Source: Gracilinema caldarium DSM 7334 (GTDB taxonomy: Bacteria > Spirochaetota > Spirochaetia > Treponematales > Breznakiellaceae). From it: 64,000 nt of DNA. The notes below the pieces were generated by a model. The model made no database searches, was not told the origin of the DNA, and worked only from the letters and a program-made list of their open reading frames with translations. The stretch is from NCBI RefSeq assembly GCF_000219725.1, contig NC_015732.1:372001-436000 (forward strand), in the 5' to 3' direction. Every line of letters begins with the position of its first letter. Position 1 is the first letter of the stretch. The position numbers were made by a program, and so were the translations under genes. Positions 37,215 to 45,711 of the stretch are shown here, piece after piece.

Positions 37215-39608
37215 CTATTGGCCCCGGAGAAGTTCCCGGGGCTTCGAGCCCTGGGCTGGCCCCACAATACCCCGTTCTTCCATCATCTCCACAATCCGGG
37301 CGGCACGATTATAGCCAATTTTCAGCCGCCGCTGTATGTAGCTGGCGCTGGCCTTCCCCTGCTGATAGACAATTTCCAGGGCCTTTTCATAGAGTGGATC
37401 ATCTCCCTCATCAAAAAGAGAAGGTTCTGCCTCTTCTTCATCTTCGTCATAAAAGATCTCATCATCAATATAGTCTGGTTCTCCAAGACCTTTTACATAC
37501 TCTACAACCCGTTCTACCTCTTCTTCAGATACAAAGGCCCCCTGCATACGGACCGGGAAGGGATCCACTGCTCCTGCATAGAGCATGTCCCCTTTCCCAA
37601 GGAGTTTCTCCGCTCCTACCATATCGATGATGATACGGCTGTCCATTTTGCTGGCCACCATAAAAGCGATACGGCTCGGAATATTTGCCTTAATGAGCCC
37701 CGTTATGACATCAATGGAAGGCCGCTGAGTTGCCAGCACCAGGTGAATACCGACAGCCCGGCTCATGGCCGCCAGTCGCGCCACGGTGGATTCCAACTCT
37801 TTGCCGGTGGTGGCCATCAGGTCCGCAAATTCATCAATCACTACCACGATATAGGGCAGGCGCTCCGTGGCAATGTTGCGCTCCTTGATCCGCTTGTTAT
37901 AACTGCGGATATCCCGGACCCCCATGGAATCCAGGAGGGCATAGCGACGCTCCATTTCATAGATACAGTACTGCAAAGCCTGAAAGGCCCGCTTTGGTTC
38001 TGTGATAACCGGCGTTAAAAGGTGAGGAATATCATTATACAATTTAAGTTCTACAATTTTTGGGTCGATGAGCATAAGCCTGACTTCGGCAGGAGACCGC
38101 TGGTACAGGATCGATAGAATCATGGAATTCACACAGACCGATTTCCCCGAACCGGTAGCTCCTGCAATAAGCAGGTGTGGTGTCTGTACCAGGTCTATGG
38201 TCTGGGCTTCGCCGGTAATATCCTTCCCCAGGATAACCGGAATTTCCATCCGTTTGCCCTCCCGGTGTAGTTCTCCTTCTATCATTTCTCGGAATGACAC
38301 AATATTTCGTTTGCGGTTTGGAACTTCAATTCCCACTGCATGCTTCCCCGGGATTGGCGCAACGATACGGACAGAACTAGCCGCAAGCCGGAGGGCGATA
38401 TTGTCCTGCAGGTTTACAATTTTTGAAAGTTTAACTCCCGGTGCAGGGAGTATTTCGAACATGGTAATAACCGGTCCCTTGCGGATACCTGTTACTTCTG
38501 CCTGAATGTTGAATTCCTTGAGTGTTTCCTTAAGGATCACCGCTGCATCCCGAGTAGCCTGGTCGATAATCCAGTACTGGCCGTCTGGGTATGCCGTCAA
38601 GAGGCCCTCTACCGGTACATGGTAGTTGGTAATGGGAAAATCGTTCTTTTTTTGGGTTACAGGTTTATCCGCAGGTGCTTCGGTTTGGTGTATGTTCCGC
38701 TCAGCTTCCTTTTCCCGTTCTATTGCCTCGGCGAGTTTTTCCGCTTCCGTTAAGGCCTGTTTTAAGTCCTTATCTACTTCATGAATCTCACTCTGAATAA
38801 TAACTGGGTCAGTAAACTGAATGGTCTTCTTGTCTTGTTCTGTGGTTGTATCCTGATCATTCTCTTGGGCCTCTCGTTCTGCTGTCTTTTGCAATACTTC
38901 TTCATCTGTATCAGAGGTTGCGTTTCTGGATACCTCAAGAGCCGTGTCCTTGGATTTGTCTAGGGCTGTCTGAAAGGATTTATATGCTTCTTTACTTGCT
39001 AAAGGTTTTGTTTCTGGAAGCTCAAATATGACTGAATCTACTGGTTCGATTGCAGGTTGAAGTTCTTCAAGTACAGGATGTGTGTTGGACGGCTCTTCAA
39101 GTAACCTTAACCGCAGAGGTTCATGGGTGGATGGTTTTATAATTGGTGCTTTAGTCTCTCTGCTTATAATTGTGTGATCTGCGATTAATCTGGTAATCCA
39201 CATAAGGATAAAGAATTCTATTAGTAGGATAAGGAGGATGCTGAGTACTATACCTATTCTTCCTAAAAGGGACAAAATAGAATAGGCAAAAAGCAGCTGA
39301 TCATAATTATTAAATATATTTAAGCCTACGGTAAGCGTAAAAAAGGGGATAATACTGGCCGTAAGGGCAAAAATTTTGTCTGGCCTATAATAATTATCCG
39401 ATAGCAGTAAGGCCGCAATAAACAAATAGATTGGGAGCCAATAAGAAAGAATTCCATAAGCATCAATACAAAATTGACCGATTTTTACTATTAAAAACGG
39501 TAACGCAAGATATGCGCTAGTGATTGCCAGGGCGAGGATTAGGCTCGCGGATCCCAGGATTACTGATAAAGTTAGCGCTGTTTTGCTTGGATGTATAGGC
39601 CGTGCCAC
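37215..39608 (-). CDS. ftsK: DNA translocase FtsK/SpoIIIE
   Basis: A 797-residue septal DNA pump. Four to five membrane helices fill residues 1-165. An acidic/Gln-rich linker follows to about 330. The motor domain has Walker A GATGSGKSVCVNSMILS and Walker B YIVVVIDEFADLM. The C-terminal gamma winged-helix (EIVYQQGKASASYIQRRLKI, then GYNRAARIVEMMEERGIVGP) reads chromosome polarity sequences. The start is GTG at 39608 with GGAGG 10 nt upstream, within 4 nt of the slt stop, so the two genes are in one operon. Confidence 0.95.
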   Translation of the reverse strand: MARPIHPSKTALTLSVILGSASLILALAITSAYLALPFLIVKIGQFCIDAYGILSYWLPIYLFIAALLLSDNYYRPDKIFALTASIIPFFTLTVGLNIFNNYDQLLFAYSILSLLGRIGIVLSILLILLIEFFILMWITRLIADHTIISRETKAPIIKPSTHEPLRLRLLEEPSNTHPVLEELQPAIEPVDSVIFELPETKPLASKEAYKSFQTALDKSKDTALEVSRNATSDTDEEVLQKTAEREAQENDQDTTTEQDKKTIQFTDPVIIQSEIHEVDKDLKQALTEAEKLAEAIEREKEAERNIHQTEAPADKPVTQKKNDFPITNYHVPVEGLLTAYPDGQYWIIDQATRDAAVILKETLKEFNIQAEVTGIRKGPVITMFEILPAPGVKLSKIVNLQDNIALRLAASSVRIVAPIPGKHAVGIEVPNRKRNIVSFREMIEGELHREGKRMEIPVILGKDITGEAQTIDLVQTPHLLIAGATGSGKSVCVNSMILSILYQRSPAEVRLMLIDPKIVELKLYNDIPHLLTPVITEPKRAFQALQYCIYEMERRYALLDSMGVRDIRSYNKRIKERNIATERLPYIVVVIDEFADLMATTGKELESTVARLAAMSRAVGIHLVLATQRPSIDVITGLIKANIPSRIAFMVASKMDSRIIIDMVGAEKLLGKGDMLYAGAVDPFPVRMQGAFVSEEEVERVVEYVKGLGEPDYIDDEIFYDEDEEEAEPSLFDEGDDPLYEKALEIVYQQGKASASYIQRRLKIGYNRAARIVEMMEERGIVGPAQGSKPRELLRGQ

Positions 39609-39611
39609 GGA

Positions 39612-41912
39612 TTATCGAGCCTCCACTGTAATTTTCTGTATAGGGAATATATCGGCAAAAATAGCTTCCATCGACATATGAAAATAGAGGTATCCATATA
39701 TCGCTGCAGCAGCAAGTACTTTTCTGCTATATTCCCGTGTTTCGGTGATCGGTATGGTTTCAAGAAAGAGATCTTCTACAAGACTTTTCTGGCTAGATCT
39801 CCAGTTTCTGACCCGGGTCATTCCGCCGTTATAGGACGCCAGAGCAAGTAAAGGGCTTCCTGTTCTTTCTATTAGATAGGAAAGATACCAAGCCCCGATA
39901 AAGAGATTTGTTTCTGGATCTTCCAGTTCTTTTTCATTGGTAATAGAAAACTCAGGTCCTCCTTCCCGTTGTATTCTCCATGTGGCATCTTTTGCAGTGG
40001 CGAGCATCAGTTGGGTAAGCCCTGTAGCTCCGGCATGGGATTTAACATCAGGAATAAAGGCGCTTTCTGTTCGTACTAGTCCGTAAAATATTTCAAGGGG
40101 AATCTTATGCTGTTTTGCTATTGGTTCCATAAGATCCCGAAAGGGTAATGGATAGAGTAATTGATAATCATTTCTGGTCGGTTCGTAATTTGGTTTGGAA
40201 AAGAGGGTCTTGGACACCAGTTGTATTTGATCTCCCCATCGGTTATGGCTCTTTAAGAGTTCTGCCAACCGATGAATGTCTTCTGGTGTTAATTGATCTT
40301 TATATTCCAGAATGTAAGGTAATGCAATATCCGCAGCTCCCCAGGTGAAAAAGCCAGAAAGATATATCATAAGTGGATCAACATCCTCTTTTTTGGTCTT
40401 TTTCGTATCTGTGTGAGCATCCGAAGGTATAGATTGGGGCTCAGGGATTACCTGAAGTTGTGTTCCTAAAAATGCTGATGCAAGGCTGCGGTAATAGAGG
40501 GAAGCCTTATCGGTCTCAAAGGCTACTTTGTACAATTCTGTTGCAACAAAGGAACGACTGCTTCCTGCAGGAATTCCGAGGAAGAGAAATTGGTCTTTTA
40601 GAGGAAAGTACCCTTCTGTAATTGCCCGTGCAAGGATATATGCATAACGTGCTTGTATAGGACTATCTGCTTTTTGATAAATAATGGTAAAAATATCTGC
40701 AAGCTCATTCCACTTATGATCAGTTATATAACTGGTACAAATTTTGTCCAAAAGATCATCAAAATAGGATGGATTCGACCAAATAGGGATGAGTGTTTCA
40801 AGGGTTTTTATAAAATTGATTTTATCTGATTCTAGTGTTGTATCTAAAATATACCAAATACATGCGTCACGTTGCTGAGGATCTGGAGCAAGGGGTAGAG
40901 CTTTATCAAAATAATTCAATGCATCTGAATACTGTTTAATTTGTCGAGCCATCCGCCCTGTAAAAAAAAGAAGCATAAATCGAATTTTATTTTTATCATT
41001 ATTGGTTATTAAGGCGCTCGTAGTCTGTCCAGATAGTATCGTTGCTTCCCAGTCTGCAAATAGCTTTATTCCTTCTTTTGTGGCACCACTGAATTGGTAG
41101 GCCTTTCCAAGATCTGCTAAAAGATCCGGATAGGCTTCAAAGAGTTCCCTGTTGCGGCGTAGTGCCTGGTTAAAGTAATAAAGGGCATCTCCATAGGATC
41201 GATCAAGTATAAACAATCTTCCTCGAATTGCATTAGTTATCGTTTGTGGTAGGTAAATATCCTGAGCCTTTTGTATTTTTTCAAACAAATTACGAGATGT
41301 TTCTGTTACGGGACCAATCAAGAAAAAGGAAGTTATCCTATTTATAATATCTTGATTCTTAGGTTCTAATGCGAGTTGGGAAAAAAGACCTAGTCCTTGT
41401 TCTTGTACTGATAAAGAAGTTATATCTATATTTTTTTGAAGAGTACATACCTCCCGATAGATGCCCATAGTAAAATATATTTCTGTCAACAGTCTACGAT
41501 ACCAATCTTGAGTTACCATTTGAGGGGAGTGCCCTGTCTGTTGGAGAATTTTCAAAGCTAAATCTATTTGGTTATTATTTAATAACAGGGGGATGAGGGT
41601 TGTAAGCCTTTCTTTCTGAAGATACATTGAGTTCTTTTCAGGCATAACCATTAATGCAGAGATACCTCGTGCTGTATCTCCCCTTTTTAGTAATTTTAAG
41701 CCAATATAAAAAGGTGCATCTGGTCCTAAAACGGTCAATTCATGCATTTGGGATGGATCAACAGAACTCAAAAAATCGTAATTATCTTTTTGTAGTAATG
41801 TTACAATTTCAGTGATAGGTTTACTAAACACTACATCAGCCTTACAGTTAGTAAGGCTGAAAAAGAAAAACGGTACAAGAAATAAAAAAGATCCCTGAAA
41901 ATTAAGAAGAAT
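39612..41912 (-). CDS. slt: Lytic murein transglycosylase, Slt70-like lipoprotein
   Basis: A protein of about 766 residues. A long alpha-helical superhelix with TPR-like repeats is followed by a C-terminal SLT domain near the last 180 residues (GLVRTESAFIPDVKSHAGAT, with the catalytic Glu, then GLTQLM and ALASYNGG). The hydrophobic N-terminus ends in SLTNC, a plausible relaxed lipobox. No ATG, GTG or TTG lies between the upstream LysM stop and this hydrophobic segment. ATT at 41912 gives a 2-nt gap; TTG at 41990 would overlap the LysM gene by 77 nt. The end coordinate is therefore provisional. It cuts peptidoglycan glycan strands. Confidence 0.82.
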   Translation of the reverse strand: MLLNFQGSFLFLVPFFFFSLTNCKADVVFSKPITEIVTLLQKDNYDFLSSVDPSQMHELTVLGPDAPFYIGLKLLKRGDTARGISALMVMPEKNSMYLQKERLTTLIPLLLNNNQIDLALKILQQTGHSPQMVTQDWYRRLLTEIYFTMGIYREVCTLQKNIDITSLSVQEQGLGLFSQLALEPKNQDIINRITSFFLIGPVTETSRNLFEKIQKAQDIYLPQTITNAIRGRLFILDRSYGDALYYFNQALRRNRELFEAYPDLLADLGKAYQFSGATKEGIKLFADWEATILSGQTTSALITNNDKNKIRFMLLFFTGRMARQIKQYSDALNYFDKALPLAPDPQQRDACIWYILDTTLESDKINFIKTLETLIPIWSNPSYFDDLLDKICTSYITDHKWNELADIFTIIYQKADSPIQARYAYILARAITEGYFPLKDQFLFLGIPAGSSRSFVATELYKVAFETDKASLYYRSLASAFLGTQLQVIPEPQSIPSDAHTDTKKTKKEDVDPLMIYLSGFFTWGAADIALPYILEYKDQLTPEDIHRLAELLKSHNRWGDQIQLVSKTLFSKPNYEPTRNDYQLLYPLPFRDLMEPIAKQHKIPLEIFYGLVRTESAFIPDVKSHAGATGLTQLMLATAKDATWRIQREGGPEFSITNEKELEDPETNLFIGAWYLSYLIERTGSPLLALASYNGGMTRVRNWRSSQKSLVEDLFLETIPITETREYSRKVLAAAAIYGYLYFHMSMEAIFADIFPIQKITVEAR

Positions 41913-41913
41913 C

Positions 41914-42888
41914 TTATGGTTTTGGCGGAATCCTAATAGTAGTACCAGAAATAATAAGATCAGGATTACGAATTTTATTAAACCGAGCAATACGGGGATA
42001 AAGCCAAGGATTACGATAAAAAGCCTCCGATATGTCCCAAAGGGTGTCACCCCAGCGAATTTTATAAGGTGCGCCTTCTTTAGGTATGGTGAGGGGGACC
42101 TTATATGAAGAAACCGGAGCTGGCGGTCTAGTCCGAGCAGGTTTTGCTTGCACTGCTGGTTGTGACGGTGAAACTTCAACCACTACTTCGGGCTTTTTCT
42201 CTTCTGTTGTATCAGTACTATTAGTTTCCTGAACAACAGTTCTTGGTTCTAGAGCTTCCACCGGTTCAGAACTTTTCACTGGCTCTGCAACAGTATCACC
42301 AGTAGTTGGTTGTACAGTGATTTCTTGCTGATCCCTCTTGCTAACAGTATTGTTAAACATAAATAGATATAGCAGAAGGGCTATCAGAATGACAATGCCT
42401 AAACCTATGAGGATTGGAATGATGGGGAATGGCTTTTTCTGTTCTTCCCGATCTCGAATTACCGAAGCCCGTTCATATAACCCAATTGGAGGTTGTTCTT
42501 CATGAGTTTCTAATTCAAAATCAGGAAGGTCATAAGTTTCCGATTGTTCTAGTGCTTTTAGGGAGACAGTCAATTGGTGTCGTTCTAAATCATTTTTATC
42601 ATCTAAATCGACCGCTTCTGCAATAAGCTCTTCTGAATCCCGAGATGTAATTGTCATCTCTATAGAAGGTTCACCCTTTGGTTTTGGAGTAATGTGTTCT
42701 ATAACTAAGCTCCCAATATATTCTGCATCGGACATGCTTTTAGATTCGCTTTTATATACATCAATCTGGACACTTTCTTGCCCATCATGGACGGTTGTTA
42801 AAATAAGACGTTTCTTTACTGAGGTGCCCTCTTCCAGTATAGGATAAAATTCCCCGTTTGCGATCTTTATTCCAATACTCGCCGCCAT
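41914..42888 (-). CDS. DnaK substrate-domain-like / single-TM / LysM fusion protein
   Basis: A 324-residue protein with three parts. Residues 1-95 resemble the beta-sandwich substrate-binding domain of Hsp70/DnaK in order and spacing: IGIKIANGEFYPILEEGTSV, TTVHDGQESVQIDVYKSE, YIGSLVIEHITPKPKGEPSI (compare DnaK GVF..LI..NT, DGQ..V.I.V.QGE, LG.F.L.GI.PAP.G.P.IEV). One membrane helix is near 156-180 (IPILIGLGIVILIALLLYLF). Residues about 275-324 form a LysM domain (YKIRWGDTLWDISEAFY). The DnaK-like part would be cytoplasmic and LysM periplasmic. GGAG lies 8 nt before the ATG. slt and ftsK follow. Confidence 0.78.
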   Translation of the reverse strand: MAASIGIKIANGEFYPILEEGTSVKKRLILTTVHDGQESVQIDVYKSESKSMSDAEYIGSLVIEHITPKPKGEPSIEMTITSRDSEELIAEAVDLDDKNDLERHQLTVSLKALEQSETYDLPDFELETHEEQPPIGLYERASVIRDREEQKKPFPIIPILIGLGIVILIALLLYLFMFNNTVSKRDQQEITVQPTTGDTVAEPVKSSEPVEALEPRTVVQETNSTDTTEEKKPEVVVEVSPSQPAVQAKPARTRPPAPVSSYKVPLTIPKEGAPYKIRWGDTLWDISEAFYRNPWLYPRIARFNKIRNPDLIISGTTIRIPPKP

Positions 42889-42968
42889 GAATTTCACTCC
42901 TTTTATACTTATTACGTTAACTTTAGACGGCATATACACCTTTGTCAATGCTGAAATCATTTATTCTC

Positions 42969-43003: not shown

Positions 43004-44383
43004 ATGATAGGAATTGTTTCTGTTCTTCTGGTTATCATTTTGCTTGTATCTGTTCTTTTAATAGCCTTAGCCATCTCTGGAAGAAAAACAGCAAAGACAG
43101 GGGATACGAAACGGAAAAAACGTAATAAAAGTCGGGAATCTCTTATTCGTGACGCTACAAAACGGCTTGCACAAAATCCCAAAGATCCGGAAGCCCTACT
43201 AACTCTGGGTGATTTGTACTATCAGGATCAGGTATGGGATAAAGCGTATAAAACCTATGAAACCCTGGTTGAACTTTGTGGTACTAATCCTGAACTGAAT
43301 GAATTTGAGATCAATATGCGCTTTGGGATGGCGGCTCTCAAGCTTAATCTTGTTGAGGATGCCTATAAAGGGCTTGTTATAGCCCGAAGCCTTCAACAAA
43401 ACAACTTTGAGGTTAACTATAATCTGGGAGTCCTTGAGTTTCAGAAGAAAAATTATGAAAAGGCTGTTCAGCTTTTACAACAGGCCAGGACCCAAGACCC
43501 CGAACATGCCTTAACATTACGTTATCTTGGTCATTGTTATTTTAAATTGCATAAGTATCGGGAAAGTCTGGTAATATTGCGTAAGGCTGTAGACTTAGTT
43601 CCTGATGATAAAGAGTCAATTTATGCCATGGGTGAATGTTACTACGAACTAGGGCAGGCAGAGCAAGCCATTAAAATATTTACCCATCTCAGACCCGATC
43701 CGGTATTGGGTCCCAGTGCCTGTCTTTTTGCTGGGACGATTCACCTCAATCAACATCAATTTACCAAAGCAATTATGGATTTTGAAATTGGTCTCAAACA
43801 TGAAAATATAAAAAATGAAATACAAGTGGAATTAAAATACCGTCTCGCGATGGCTTATCTACGACAACAAGAAATAGGCAGAGCCCTTAGTTATCTCAAA
43901 GATATACAGGTTACAAATCCCAATTATAAAGATGTTCCGACACTTATTGGAAAATACCAAGAACTTAATTCGAATAAAAATCTGCAAATATACCTTATGG
44001 CGTCGACCGGTGATTTTGTTACCCTCTGCCGCAAGGTTGTACTCAGTTTTTTCCCAAAAGCAAAGGTGAAAATAACTAACATTTCGGTTAATAAAAATGA
44101 ATGGGTCGATATCCTTACCGATGTAGATACCCCAAAATGGGCCGATGTGGTTATGTTTCGTTTTATTCGGAGTATCGGTTCTGTGGGAGAACTTATAGTG
44201 AGGGATTTTCATGCACAACTCAAGGATGTTAAGGCTGGAAAAGGCTACTGTATCACTGCCGGCACTTTTACCGACGAGGCAAAAAAATTCGTAGAAGCCC
44301 GCCTCATCGACCTGTATGACAAAGATAAGCTGGGGGGCTTGCTCAAAGGGGTAGATGCAACTACCACCCAGCTTGAAATATAG
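43004..44383 (+). CDS. Membrane-anchored TPR protein with C-terminal Mrr-like endonuclease-fold domain
   Basis: A 459-residue protein. An N-terminal membrane helix (VLLVIILLVSVLLIALAIS) and a basic stretch precede about seven TPR units (residues 45-320; NYNLGVLEFQKKNYEKAVQL is a clear one). The last 120 residues resemble the Mrr/restriction endonuclease-like fold: EWVDILTDVDTPKWADVVMF followed by KGYCITAGTFTDEAKKFVEA and LIDLYDKDKLGGLL. The expected QxK catalytic pair is not present (FRFIRSIG lies there), so nuclease activity is doubtful. It lies divergent to the DnaK-like/LysM gene. Cytoplasmic scaffold function is the simplest inference. Confidence 0.75.
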   Translation: MIGIVSVLLVIILLVSVLLIALAISGRKTAKTGDTKRKKRNKSRESLIRDATKRLAQNPKDPEALLTLGDLYYQDQVWDKAYKTYETLVELCGTNPELNEFEINMRFGMAALKLNLVEDAYKGLVIARSLQQNNFEVNYNLGVLEFQKKNYEKAVQLLQQARTQDPEHALTLRYLGHCYFKLHKYRESLVILRKAVDLVPDDKESIYAMGECYYELGQAEQAIKIFTHLRPDPVLGPSACLFAGTIHLNQHQFTKAIMDFEIGLKHENIKNEIQVELKYRLAMAYLRQQEIGRALSYLKDIQVTNPNYKDVPTLIGKYQELNSNKNLQIYLMASTGDFVTLCRKVVLSFFPKAKVKITNISVNKNEWVDILTDVDTPKWADVVMFRFIRSIGSVGELIVRDFHAQLKDVKAGKGYCITAGTFTDEAKKFVEARLIDLYDKDKLGGLLKGVDATTTQLEI

Positions 44384-44400: not shown

Positions 44401-45711
44401 TCAATCAGCGGACCCGAAATCGGGCAGCCCCGGTAACGCTTGTGTTACCCTTTCCGGCTCCTGCAGTTGTTCAGCCTTCTTAAGTTTTCCCTGTATGGTG
44501 CGGGATTTTTTATCCGCCAGGTCTACCGTATCTGCTGCTTCCTGTAATTTCTTTCTGGTTTTATCTAAAAGTGCTCCAAATTTCTCAAATTCTGTTTTTA
44601 CCAGGCTCAAAGTCCGCCATACTTCGGTGGTTCGCTGTTCAACCGCCAGGGTTCGGAAGCCCATCTGTAGGCTGTTGATCATAGCCGCTAGGGTTGTCGG
44701 TCCTGCAATCACCACCCGAAACTCCCGCTGAAGGCTCTCCGCGAGGCCCGGCCGAGACAGGATTTCTGCAAAAAGCCCCTCCGACGGAAGAAAGAGGATT
44801 CCGAAATCGGTCGTATAGGGTGGATGGATATATTTTTCGTAAATATCCTTGGCAGAAATTTTAAGCCGCCGTTCCAAAAGCTTGCCAGCCTCTTCACTGG
44901 CAAGGCTATCACCGTTTTCACGGGCGCTTACGAGCCGTTCATAATCCTCTTTAGGGAATTTAGCATCGATGGGAAGCAGTACAGGTCTGTCTTTTATTCC
45001 TTCCCCAGCGCTTCCAGCAGTACCGGCAGAGCCGGCAGAGCCGGCAGAGCCGGCAGAGCCTGGCAGTCGAATTGCAACTTCAACCCGTTCCTGACTTCCT
45101 GGCTGCATTGCTGCATTGAGTTCATATTGATGTGGTGCCAGAAGGTCCTGGATAATCGAAATGAGTTGGACTTCGCCCCAGGTCCCACGATTTTTTACAT
45201 TGACAAGCACCCGTTTCAGGTCTCCAACCCCGGCGGCCAGGGCCCGCATTTCTCCAAGACCAGCCTGAACCTGTTCAAGCCGGTCCCCTACTAATTTAAA
45301 GGATTCACCAAGCCGCTTTTCAAGGGTTTCATGAAGTTTGTCATCCACAGTTTTACGTATCTGTTCAAGCCGTGCCGCATTATCGGTTTGCAGGTCCCGC
45401 AGTTTTCGATCCACGGTCTCCCGAAGCTGTTCCATTTTCTGGTCATTGCCCTGCCCAAAACGGGCTATTTCCTGGCGCAACGCGGCCAGTTGACTGGCTT
45501 CCAATTCCATTATTTTTGTCAAATTGTGGGCCAGTTCTGACCGGGTTCCCCGTAATTCTTCCTGCAGACTCCGCTCAAGCCGATCCTGAGCCTGGGTTAG
45601 AGTTATAAGATGAGGATTCCCGTCTTTAGGCCGTAATCTTAAGATCAAAATAATAAAAAAAGTTAGAAAGAATAGGCCACTCAAAAAAAATACGATGAAA
45701 ATTGTGTCCAT
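44401..45711 (-). CDS. rmuC: DNA recombination protein RmuC
   Basis: A 436-residue RmuC-family protein. An N-terminal membrane helix (IFIVFFLSGLFFLTFFIILI) is followed by a coiled coil to about residue 175. The conserved RmuC core has NVKNRGTWGEVQL, LPIDAKFPKEDYERL, YIHPPYTTDFGILFLPSEGL and VVIAGPTTLAAMINSLQMGF. The core resembles PD-(D/E)xK nucleases and the family limits DNA inversions. A Gly-Ser-Ala repeat interrupts it near residues 217-231. A perfect TATAAT lies 8 nt upstream of the ATG without a Shine-Dalgarno. It is divergent from the NfeD-FloA operon. Confidence 0.92.
   Translation of the reverse strand: MDTIFIVFFLSGLFFLTFFIILILRLRPKDGNPHLITLTQAQDRLERSLQEELRGTRSELAHNLTKIMELEASQLAALRQEIARFGQGNDQKMEQLRETVDRKLRDLQTDNAARLEQIRKTVDDKLHETLEKRLGESFKLVGDRLEQVQAGLGEMRALAAGVGDLKRVLVNVKNRGTWGEVQLISIIQDLLAPHQYELNAAMQPGSQERVEVAIRLPGSAGSAGSAGSAGTAGSAGEGIKDRPVLLPIDAKFPKEDYERLVSARENGDSLASEEAGKLLERRLKISAKDIYEKYIHPPYTTDFGILFLPSEGLFAEILSRPGLAESLQREFRVVIAGPTTLAAMINSLQMGFRTLAVEQRTTEVWRTLSLVKTEFEKFGALLDKTRKKLQEAADTVDLADKKSRTIQGKLKKAEQLQEPERVTQALPGLPDFGSAD
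45022..45066 (-). repeat. 9-bp tandem repeat in rmuC
   Basis: Five consecutive 9-bp units based on gccggcaga (reading on the plus strand), the first and last with one change each. On the coding strand they encode Gly-Ser-Ala triplets, so copy changes keep the frame and would only lengthen or shorten a flexible loop. Confidence 0.85.

Follow-up and report, generated by a model that had tools for sequence, protein, structure and literature searches.

A membrane-anchored substrate-binding domain of the Hsp70 type encoded beside a lytic transglycosylase gene in spirochaetes

The locus and its genes

The window, that is, the whole stretch of DNA that was analysed, comprises 64,000 nucleotides of the Gracilinema caldarium DSM 7334 genome. 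The gene under study encodes a substrate-binding domain (SBD) of the Hsp70 type, a transmembrane (TM) helix and a LysM domain. It occupies positions 41914-42888, exactly as an earlier, sequence-only reading had placed it; that reading gave no strand, which is minus. The features of the locus are as follows.

41914..42888, minus strand: SBD-TM-LysM gene, 324 aa, ATG start at 42888
42897..42902, minus strand: Shine-Dalgarno AAGGAG, 8 bases before the ATG, read from the sequence
42553..42885, minus strand: Hsp70-type SBD-beta domain, residues 2-112 (Pfam HSP70 1.8e-9; VIA Z 14-15)
42424..42552, minus strand: acidic linker, predicted cytoplasmic, residues 113-155 (low-confidence in the model; relatives compared)
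42352..42423, minus strand: predicted TM helix, residues 156-179 (pLDDT up to 92; hydropathy in relatives)
42073..42351, minus strand: low-complexity linker, predicted periplasmic, residues 180-272 (mostly predicted disordered; pLDDT 39-48 over 181-260)
41926..42066, minus strand: LysM domain, residues 275-321 (PF01476, 6.6e-8)
39612..41911, start approximate, minus strand: slt, lipoprotein-type lytic transglycosylase with a TPR-like N-region (Pfam SLT 3.4e-23)
37215..39608, minus strand: ftsK, with alpha, motor and gamma domains (domain matches)
43004..44383, plus strand: divergent tpr gene, with an N-terminal TM, TPR repeats and an Mrr-like C-domain (conserved neighbour)

The ATG at 42888 is taken as the start because AAGGAG lies upstream of it and because the relatives share their N-termini (MAS.IGIKIANG). 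The protein contains a single hydrophobic helix, the N-side flank of which is rich in K/R, and its LysM domain scores 32.8 bits, above the curated Pfam cut-off of 20.9. The positive-inside pattern agrees with a topology in which the N-terminal SBD would lie inside the cell and the C-terminal LysM domain outside. One TM helix and a periplasmic LysM domain had been proposed earlier, and the helix at 156-179, the PF01476 score and the charge pattern all support this. The grouping of the gene with slt and ftsK was likewise borne out: slt follows directly, ftsK lies 3 bases beyond slt, and all three are on the minus strand.

The slt gene encodes the catalytic motif set ES, GLTQ and YNGG and a lipoprotein-like signal, SLTNC. 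No ATG, GTG or TTG is found in the window between the end of the SBD-TM-LysM gene and this signal (41840-41914, minus strand). In many relatives the in-frame slt codon over the upstream stop is ATT (ATTAA/ATTAG), and in others it is TTGA or GTG, as compared at L006, L008, L010, L011, L013, L016, L019, L026, L047, L077 and L082 (+). These sequences make it likely that slt uses a recurrent non-canonical start coupled to the upstream stop. Relative to the LysM stop, slt lies in different frames in different relatives, which makes a programmed frameshift from LysM into slt unlikely.

The C-domain of the divergent tpr gene has an Mrr-like restriction-endonuclease fold (Pfam Mrr_cat 5.1e-7), and its combination with a TM and TPR repeats is odd. 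An open reading frame at 44401-45711 on the minus strand, taken for RmuC, contains an in-frame run, GSAGSAGSAGSAGTAGSAG, which may be a variable tract.

The steadiest neighbour of the SBD gene is slt, which adjoins it in 72 of the 76 informative close loci and in 29 of the 37 informative deep ones. The tpr gene is a neighbour in 59 of 71 close and 20 of 39 deep loci, and ftsK is found no more than 4.5 kb away in 35/58 close and 14/31 deep loci. Of the slt/ftsK linkage that the sequence-only reading had proposed to look for in spirochaete genomes, that with slt is upheld and that with ftsK is less steady. In other families uppP (BacA) lies between slt and ftsK. Two loci, L206 and L156, retain ftsK without an slt match, and slt is kept without ftsK in T. 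pallidum-type and many Treponema loci. The order in Borreliaceae is ftsK (seen in L147), slt, SBD-TM and divergent tpr. The T. pallidum-type homologue sits ahead of slt and gidA; TP0046-TP0048, a candidate for the T. pallidum locus that is implicated in motility (PMC2386257), was rejected, as these are different genes.

The first domain and its relation to Hsp70

The Pfam profile HSP70 (PF00012) matches residues 4-81 with its positions 393-472, at 36.8 bits (1.8e-9; gathering score 20.6), and the top NCBIfam match to the protein is DnaK (8.2e-10). The PDB sequence matches listed are SBDs of Hsp70/DnaK, the best at 7.7e-9, with the sole exception of Chlamydomonas FAP363 (8glv/6u42). In an AlphaFold2 model built on 23 relatives, residues 1-110 form eight strands (pLDDT about 74-92) and are followed by the helix 156-179, by disorder and by a confident LysM domain. 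Foldseek puts the first domain of this model with the DnaK/Hsp70 SBD-beta (5e-8). The best compact VIA alignments to DnaK/Hsp70 SBDs give Z 14-15 and about 2 A over 106-111 residues, and the modelled SBD aligns to Hsp70 SBDs across residues 2-114. The sequence-only reading had recognized the domain in residues 1-95 and had named in advance a profile search and a structure prediction by which it could fall; both returned Hsp70. The fold stood, but the boundary did not, as the domain reaches about residue 112.

A chance or low-complexity match is ruled out by the Pfam, PDB sequence and fold evidence, and chance also because the gene is conserved over 357 related stretches in GTDB genomes (the best 80 of the 357 are titled treponemes or other spirochaetes). 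A dnaK fragment or pseudogene is ruled out by a full-length conserved family, by its clean split from the Hsp70s and by the presence of a separate intact DnaK in the genome. The HSP70 content of the G. caldarium genome consists of one full DnaK, this SBD gene and one 367 aa frame with a short match to the ATPase region (profile 136-236).

Three parts that define Hsp70 chaperones are missing. The N-terminal, actin-like ATPase domain, which had already been found lacking, is absent: the reading frame begins at SBD strand 1, and the Pfam match covers only HSP70 393-472. The interdomain linker of the DVTPL type is absent, with just MAAS ahead of strand 1. The helical lid (SBD-alpha) is also absent; its place is occupied by the acidic, low-confidence linker of residues 113-155, with the TM helix next. 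The family therefore does not belong to the Hsp70 chaperones, with which it shares the SBD by descent.

Conservation was analysed in 94 non-redundant members of the SBD family and compared with 26 Hsp70s. Thirteen positions, which align with residues that we take to form the DnaK cleft, have a mean entropy of 1.11 in the family, against 1.99 elsewhere (p = 6e-4; for residues 4-80 alone, p 1.6e-3). The equivalent of DnaK Q433 is Q in 90 of 92 members, and the recurrent cleft substitutions are M404 to A, F426 to L and A429 to V, so that the pocket appears from the alignment to be still hydrophobic, though altered. At the E402 position all 26 Hsp70s have E and 92 of the 94 family members have K/R; at the K414 position R/K is found in 26/26 Hsp70s and mostly E/D in the family. 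In DnaK, interdomain coupling involves K414 and its loop, and the changed charges at both positions are consistent with the loss of the ATPase motor. In a tree of 63 SBDs, the family is separated from the Hsp70s by one split with support 100/99, the domain being short and the tree unrooted.

The family in spirochaetes

In a sample of the phylum, homologues of the gene occur throughout Spirochaetia and in a few families outside the class. In G056, which we take to be a T. pallidum Nichols-type genome, the homologue is 310 aa long and combines a diverged SBD with a LysM domain (7.5e-12). Pfam gives no match at E<=1 for the Borreliaceae homologue, the model of which (pLDDT 92) superimposes on Hsp70 SBDs with Z 12.5 and 2.4 A over 108 residues. 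Even in a more sensitive scan the T. pallidum-type and Borrelia-type SBDs score about 6e-9.

When 31 SBD-positive proteins were tabulated, LysM was present in 18 and absent from 13. It is missing from Borreliaceae and several other families, which keep the SBD, linker and TM; these members consist of the SBD, usually an acidic linker, the TM and, at the C-terminus, a tail that spans 12-42 residues (96 in one). K/R residues are commoner before the TM than after it in most members, Borreliaceae excepted. Judged from sequence, the family core is the SBD, linker and TM, and LysM is common and optional; LysM was dropped as a defining part, as many deep members lack it. Of the three-part architecture that the sequence-only reading had proposed to seek in spirochaete genomes, the SBD-linker-TM part holds. 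The suggested link to the wall through LysM has its domain here, but this is a lineage feature, and wall binding is dispensable in the 13 of 31 members without it. In three Treponema-type loci (L169, L170, L171) the linker between SBD and LysM is very long, and the proteins reach 570-1060 aa. Borreliaceae loci (L145:8078-9586, L146:8385-9839 and L147:9431-10924) encode, a few kb from the SBD-TM gene, a short Hsp70 of 485-503 aa with little room for a lid, a possible partner of the SBD-TM protein.

FliF was sought in 297 Spirochaetia genomes and found in 233. In the four families without FliF in any sampled genome (f12, f61, f62, f70), the SBD gene is present in 0 of 34 genomes, and the remaining matches are frames of DnaK size (641-650 aa). 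Ten genomes tested from these families have no slt orthologue and no FlhA, and the same set has no tpr orthologue, just weak generic TPR matches. The SBD gene occurs in 36 of the 41 FliF-positive families (Fisher p 8e-4 by family, kinship ignored); the four non-flagellate families may form one clade, in which the gene would have been lost just once, and their wall biology could be different too. In the flagellate family f10 a weak homologue lies at the expected place beside ftsK, with slt gone, and the flagellate families f13, f15, f18 and f72 have no demonstrable homologue. As four or five flagellate families are without a clear homologue, flagella do not strictly need the gene. Seven further FliF-negative genomes, mostly incomplete and from flagellate families, carry it. 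G063, which has the SBD gene and no FliF, was set aside as a counterexample: FlhA is present, and the FliF gap is probably due to assembly. Two frames considered by position as diverged homologues, L200:7144 and L203:612, were rejected because neither matches the SBD profile; L200:7144 reads like a nucleoside phosphorylase. In f13, L201:8579 (163 aa, with a TM and in the right position) is a candidate homologue.

Proposed role and known systems

BB0259 (LTase-Bb) of Borrelia burgdorferi is an SLT protein that the flagellar hooks need in order to penetrate the wall (PMC8517470). When it is absent or its catalytic E580 is altered, the hooks lie under the wall and the cells are non-motile; it also binds FlgJ (PMC8517470). 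The orthology of the L147 slt gene to BB0259 rests on family match, locus order and the published reverse primer, which fits L147 about 0.3 kb downstream of slt with 3 mismatches; the forward primer was not found in L147. From its position we infer that the Borrelia SBD gene beside BB0259 is BB0260.

It is tentatively proposed, at a little under an even chance, that the SBD-TM-LysM protein is an ATP-independent adaptor of the inner membrane, specific to spirochaetes, which recruits partners on the cytoplasmic side to sites of wall opening, most likely for the periplasmic flagella. Its putatively cytoplasmic N-domain is an SBD-beta derived from Hsp70, as sequence and predicted fold show, devoid of ATPase, linker and lid, and the retained hydrophobic cleft would probably grip a short hydrophobic stretch of a partner in extended form, with rapid exchange that needs no ATP. 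The flexible acidic linker and the one TM helix would extend the tether into the periplasm, and the LysM domain present in many lineages would grip peptidoglycan there. The adaptor may act together with the lytic transglycosylase encoded next to it, and probably with the divergent membrane TPR protein too, to mark or stabilise the wall-opening sites, the opening served most likely being that for the hook/rod. Also conceivable, if somewhat unlikely, is an ATP-independent transmembrane 'Hsp70 clamp', in which the motorless SBD, as the sensing part of a wall-opening complex, recognises a motor or export peptide inside and thereby licenses or places the transglycosylase outside for the periplasmic flagella.

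The main rival of the flagellar reading is division. The SBD might bind a divisome or elongasome peptide and place Slt at the septal or lateral wall, as an adaptor for division or general wall remodelling; ftsK directly after slt in G. caldarium and within 4.5 kb at the loci counted above, uppP between the two elsewhere, and the retention of ftsK without an slt match in L206 and L156 speak for this, and the ftsK and uppP neighbours to that extent count against a flagellar adaptor. We nevertheless regard the division reading as rather doubtful, as the gene is absent from non-flagellate Spirochaetia, which still divide, and T. pallidum-type and many Treponema loci retain slt and not ftsK. The flagellar role is favoured over division because slt is the steadiest neighbour, because its best-known orthologue is flagellum-specific (PMC8517470) and because the gene, slt and tpr are jointly missing in non-flagellates. 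Of the division or wall-remodelling role proposed in the sequence-only reading, the linkage to a wall enzyme stood, and division is less well supported than the flagellar role.

Two other explanations were considered. The fold could be a purely structural or oligomerisation module whose cleft no longer binds peptide. The altered cleft residues (M404 to A, F426 to L), the loss of the lid and the great divergence of the T. pallidum-type and Borrelia-type SBDs would fit this, but the cleft positions are still hydrophobic and vary less than the other positions of the domain, which makes it improbable. A cleft conserved without an ATPase, together with the short Hsp70 a few kb away in Borreliaceae, would suit a holdase at the inner membrane that takes up proteins during their synthesis or export (Slt and other Sec substrates) instead of DnaK or hands them to it. 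A general holdase would explain neither the slt linkage nor the absence from non-flagellate families, and would leave the LysM tail unaccounted for; it is considered quite improbable.

If the adaptor reading is true, an ATPase-free Hsp70 substrate domain that acts from the membrane and is tied to peptidoglycan would put a well-studied fold to a new use. The protein would also be a candidate part of the mechanism that positions the wall-opening enzyme of the periplasmic flagella in spirochaetes and keeps it in check, and homologues lie beside slt in T. pallidum- and Borrelia-type genomes. The sequence-only reading knew of no described system with this layout, and a search of the open literature by locus tag and domain words agreed in that no description of the Borrelia and Treponema SBD genes was found. 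The parts are known; no account of their combination in one phylum-wide family was met in that literature.

Several known systems share single parts with the G. caldarium protein. The SBD-beta of E. coli DnaK has the same fold (Z 13-14.5, about 2-3 A), about 25% identity and a hydrophobic cleft that includes the Q433 equivalent, whereas the G. caldarium protein is without ATPase domain, linker and lid, has E402 and K414 swapped to the opposite charge, and is membrane-anchored. Chlamydomonas FAP363 (PDB 6u42_5F, 8glv_5F) contains a DnaK-SBD-like domain in a protein of 390 residues (E 1e-4; Z 13.0), but it belongs to the eukaryotic axoneme; it offers a parallel for an SBD in a protein that is no chaperone, which does not imply a common family. 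The LysM wall proteins (NCBIfam YneA, PRK11198) have LysM as a wall anchor in common with it, and the matches to these models are limited to LysM, the SBD falling outside them. BB0259 is the product of the slt gene that adjoins the SBD gene, and the order of the locus is shared in Borreliaceae; it is the neighbouring enzyme, not the SBD protein, and its description (PMC8517470) makes no mention of the adjacent SBD gene.
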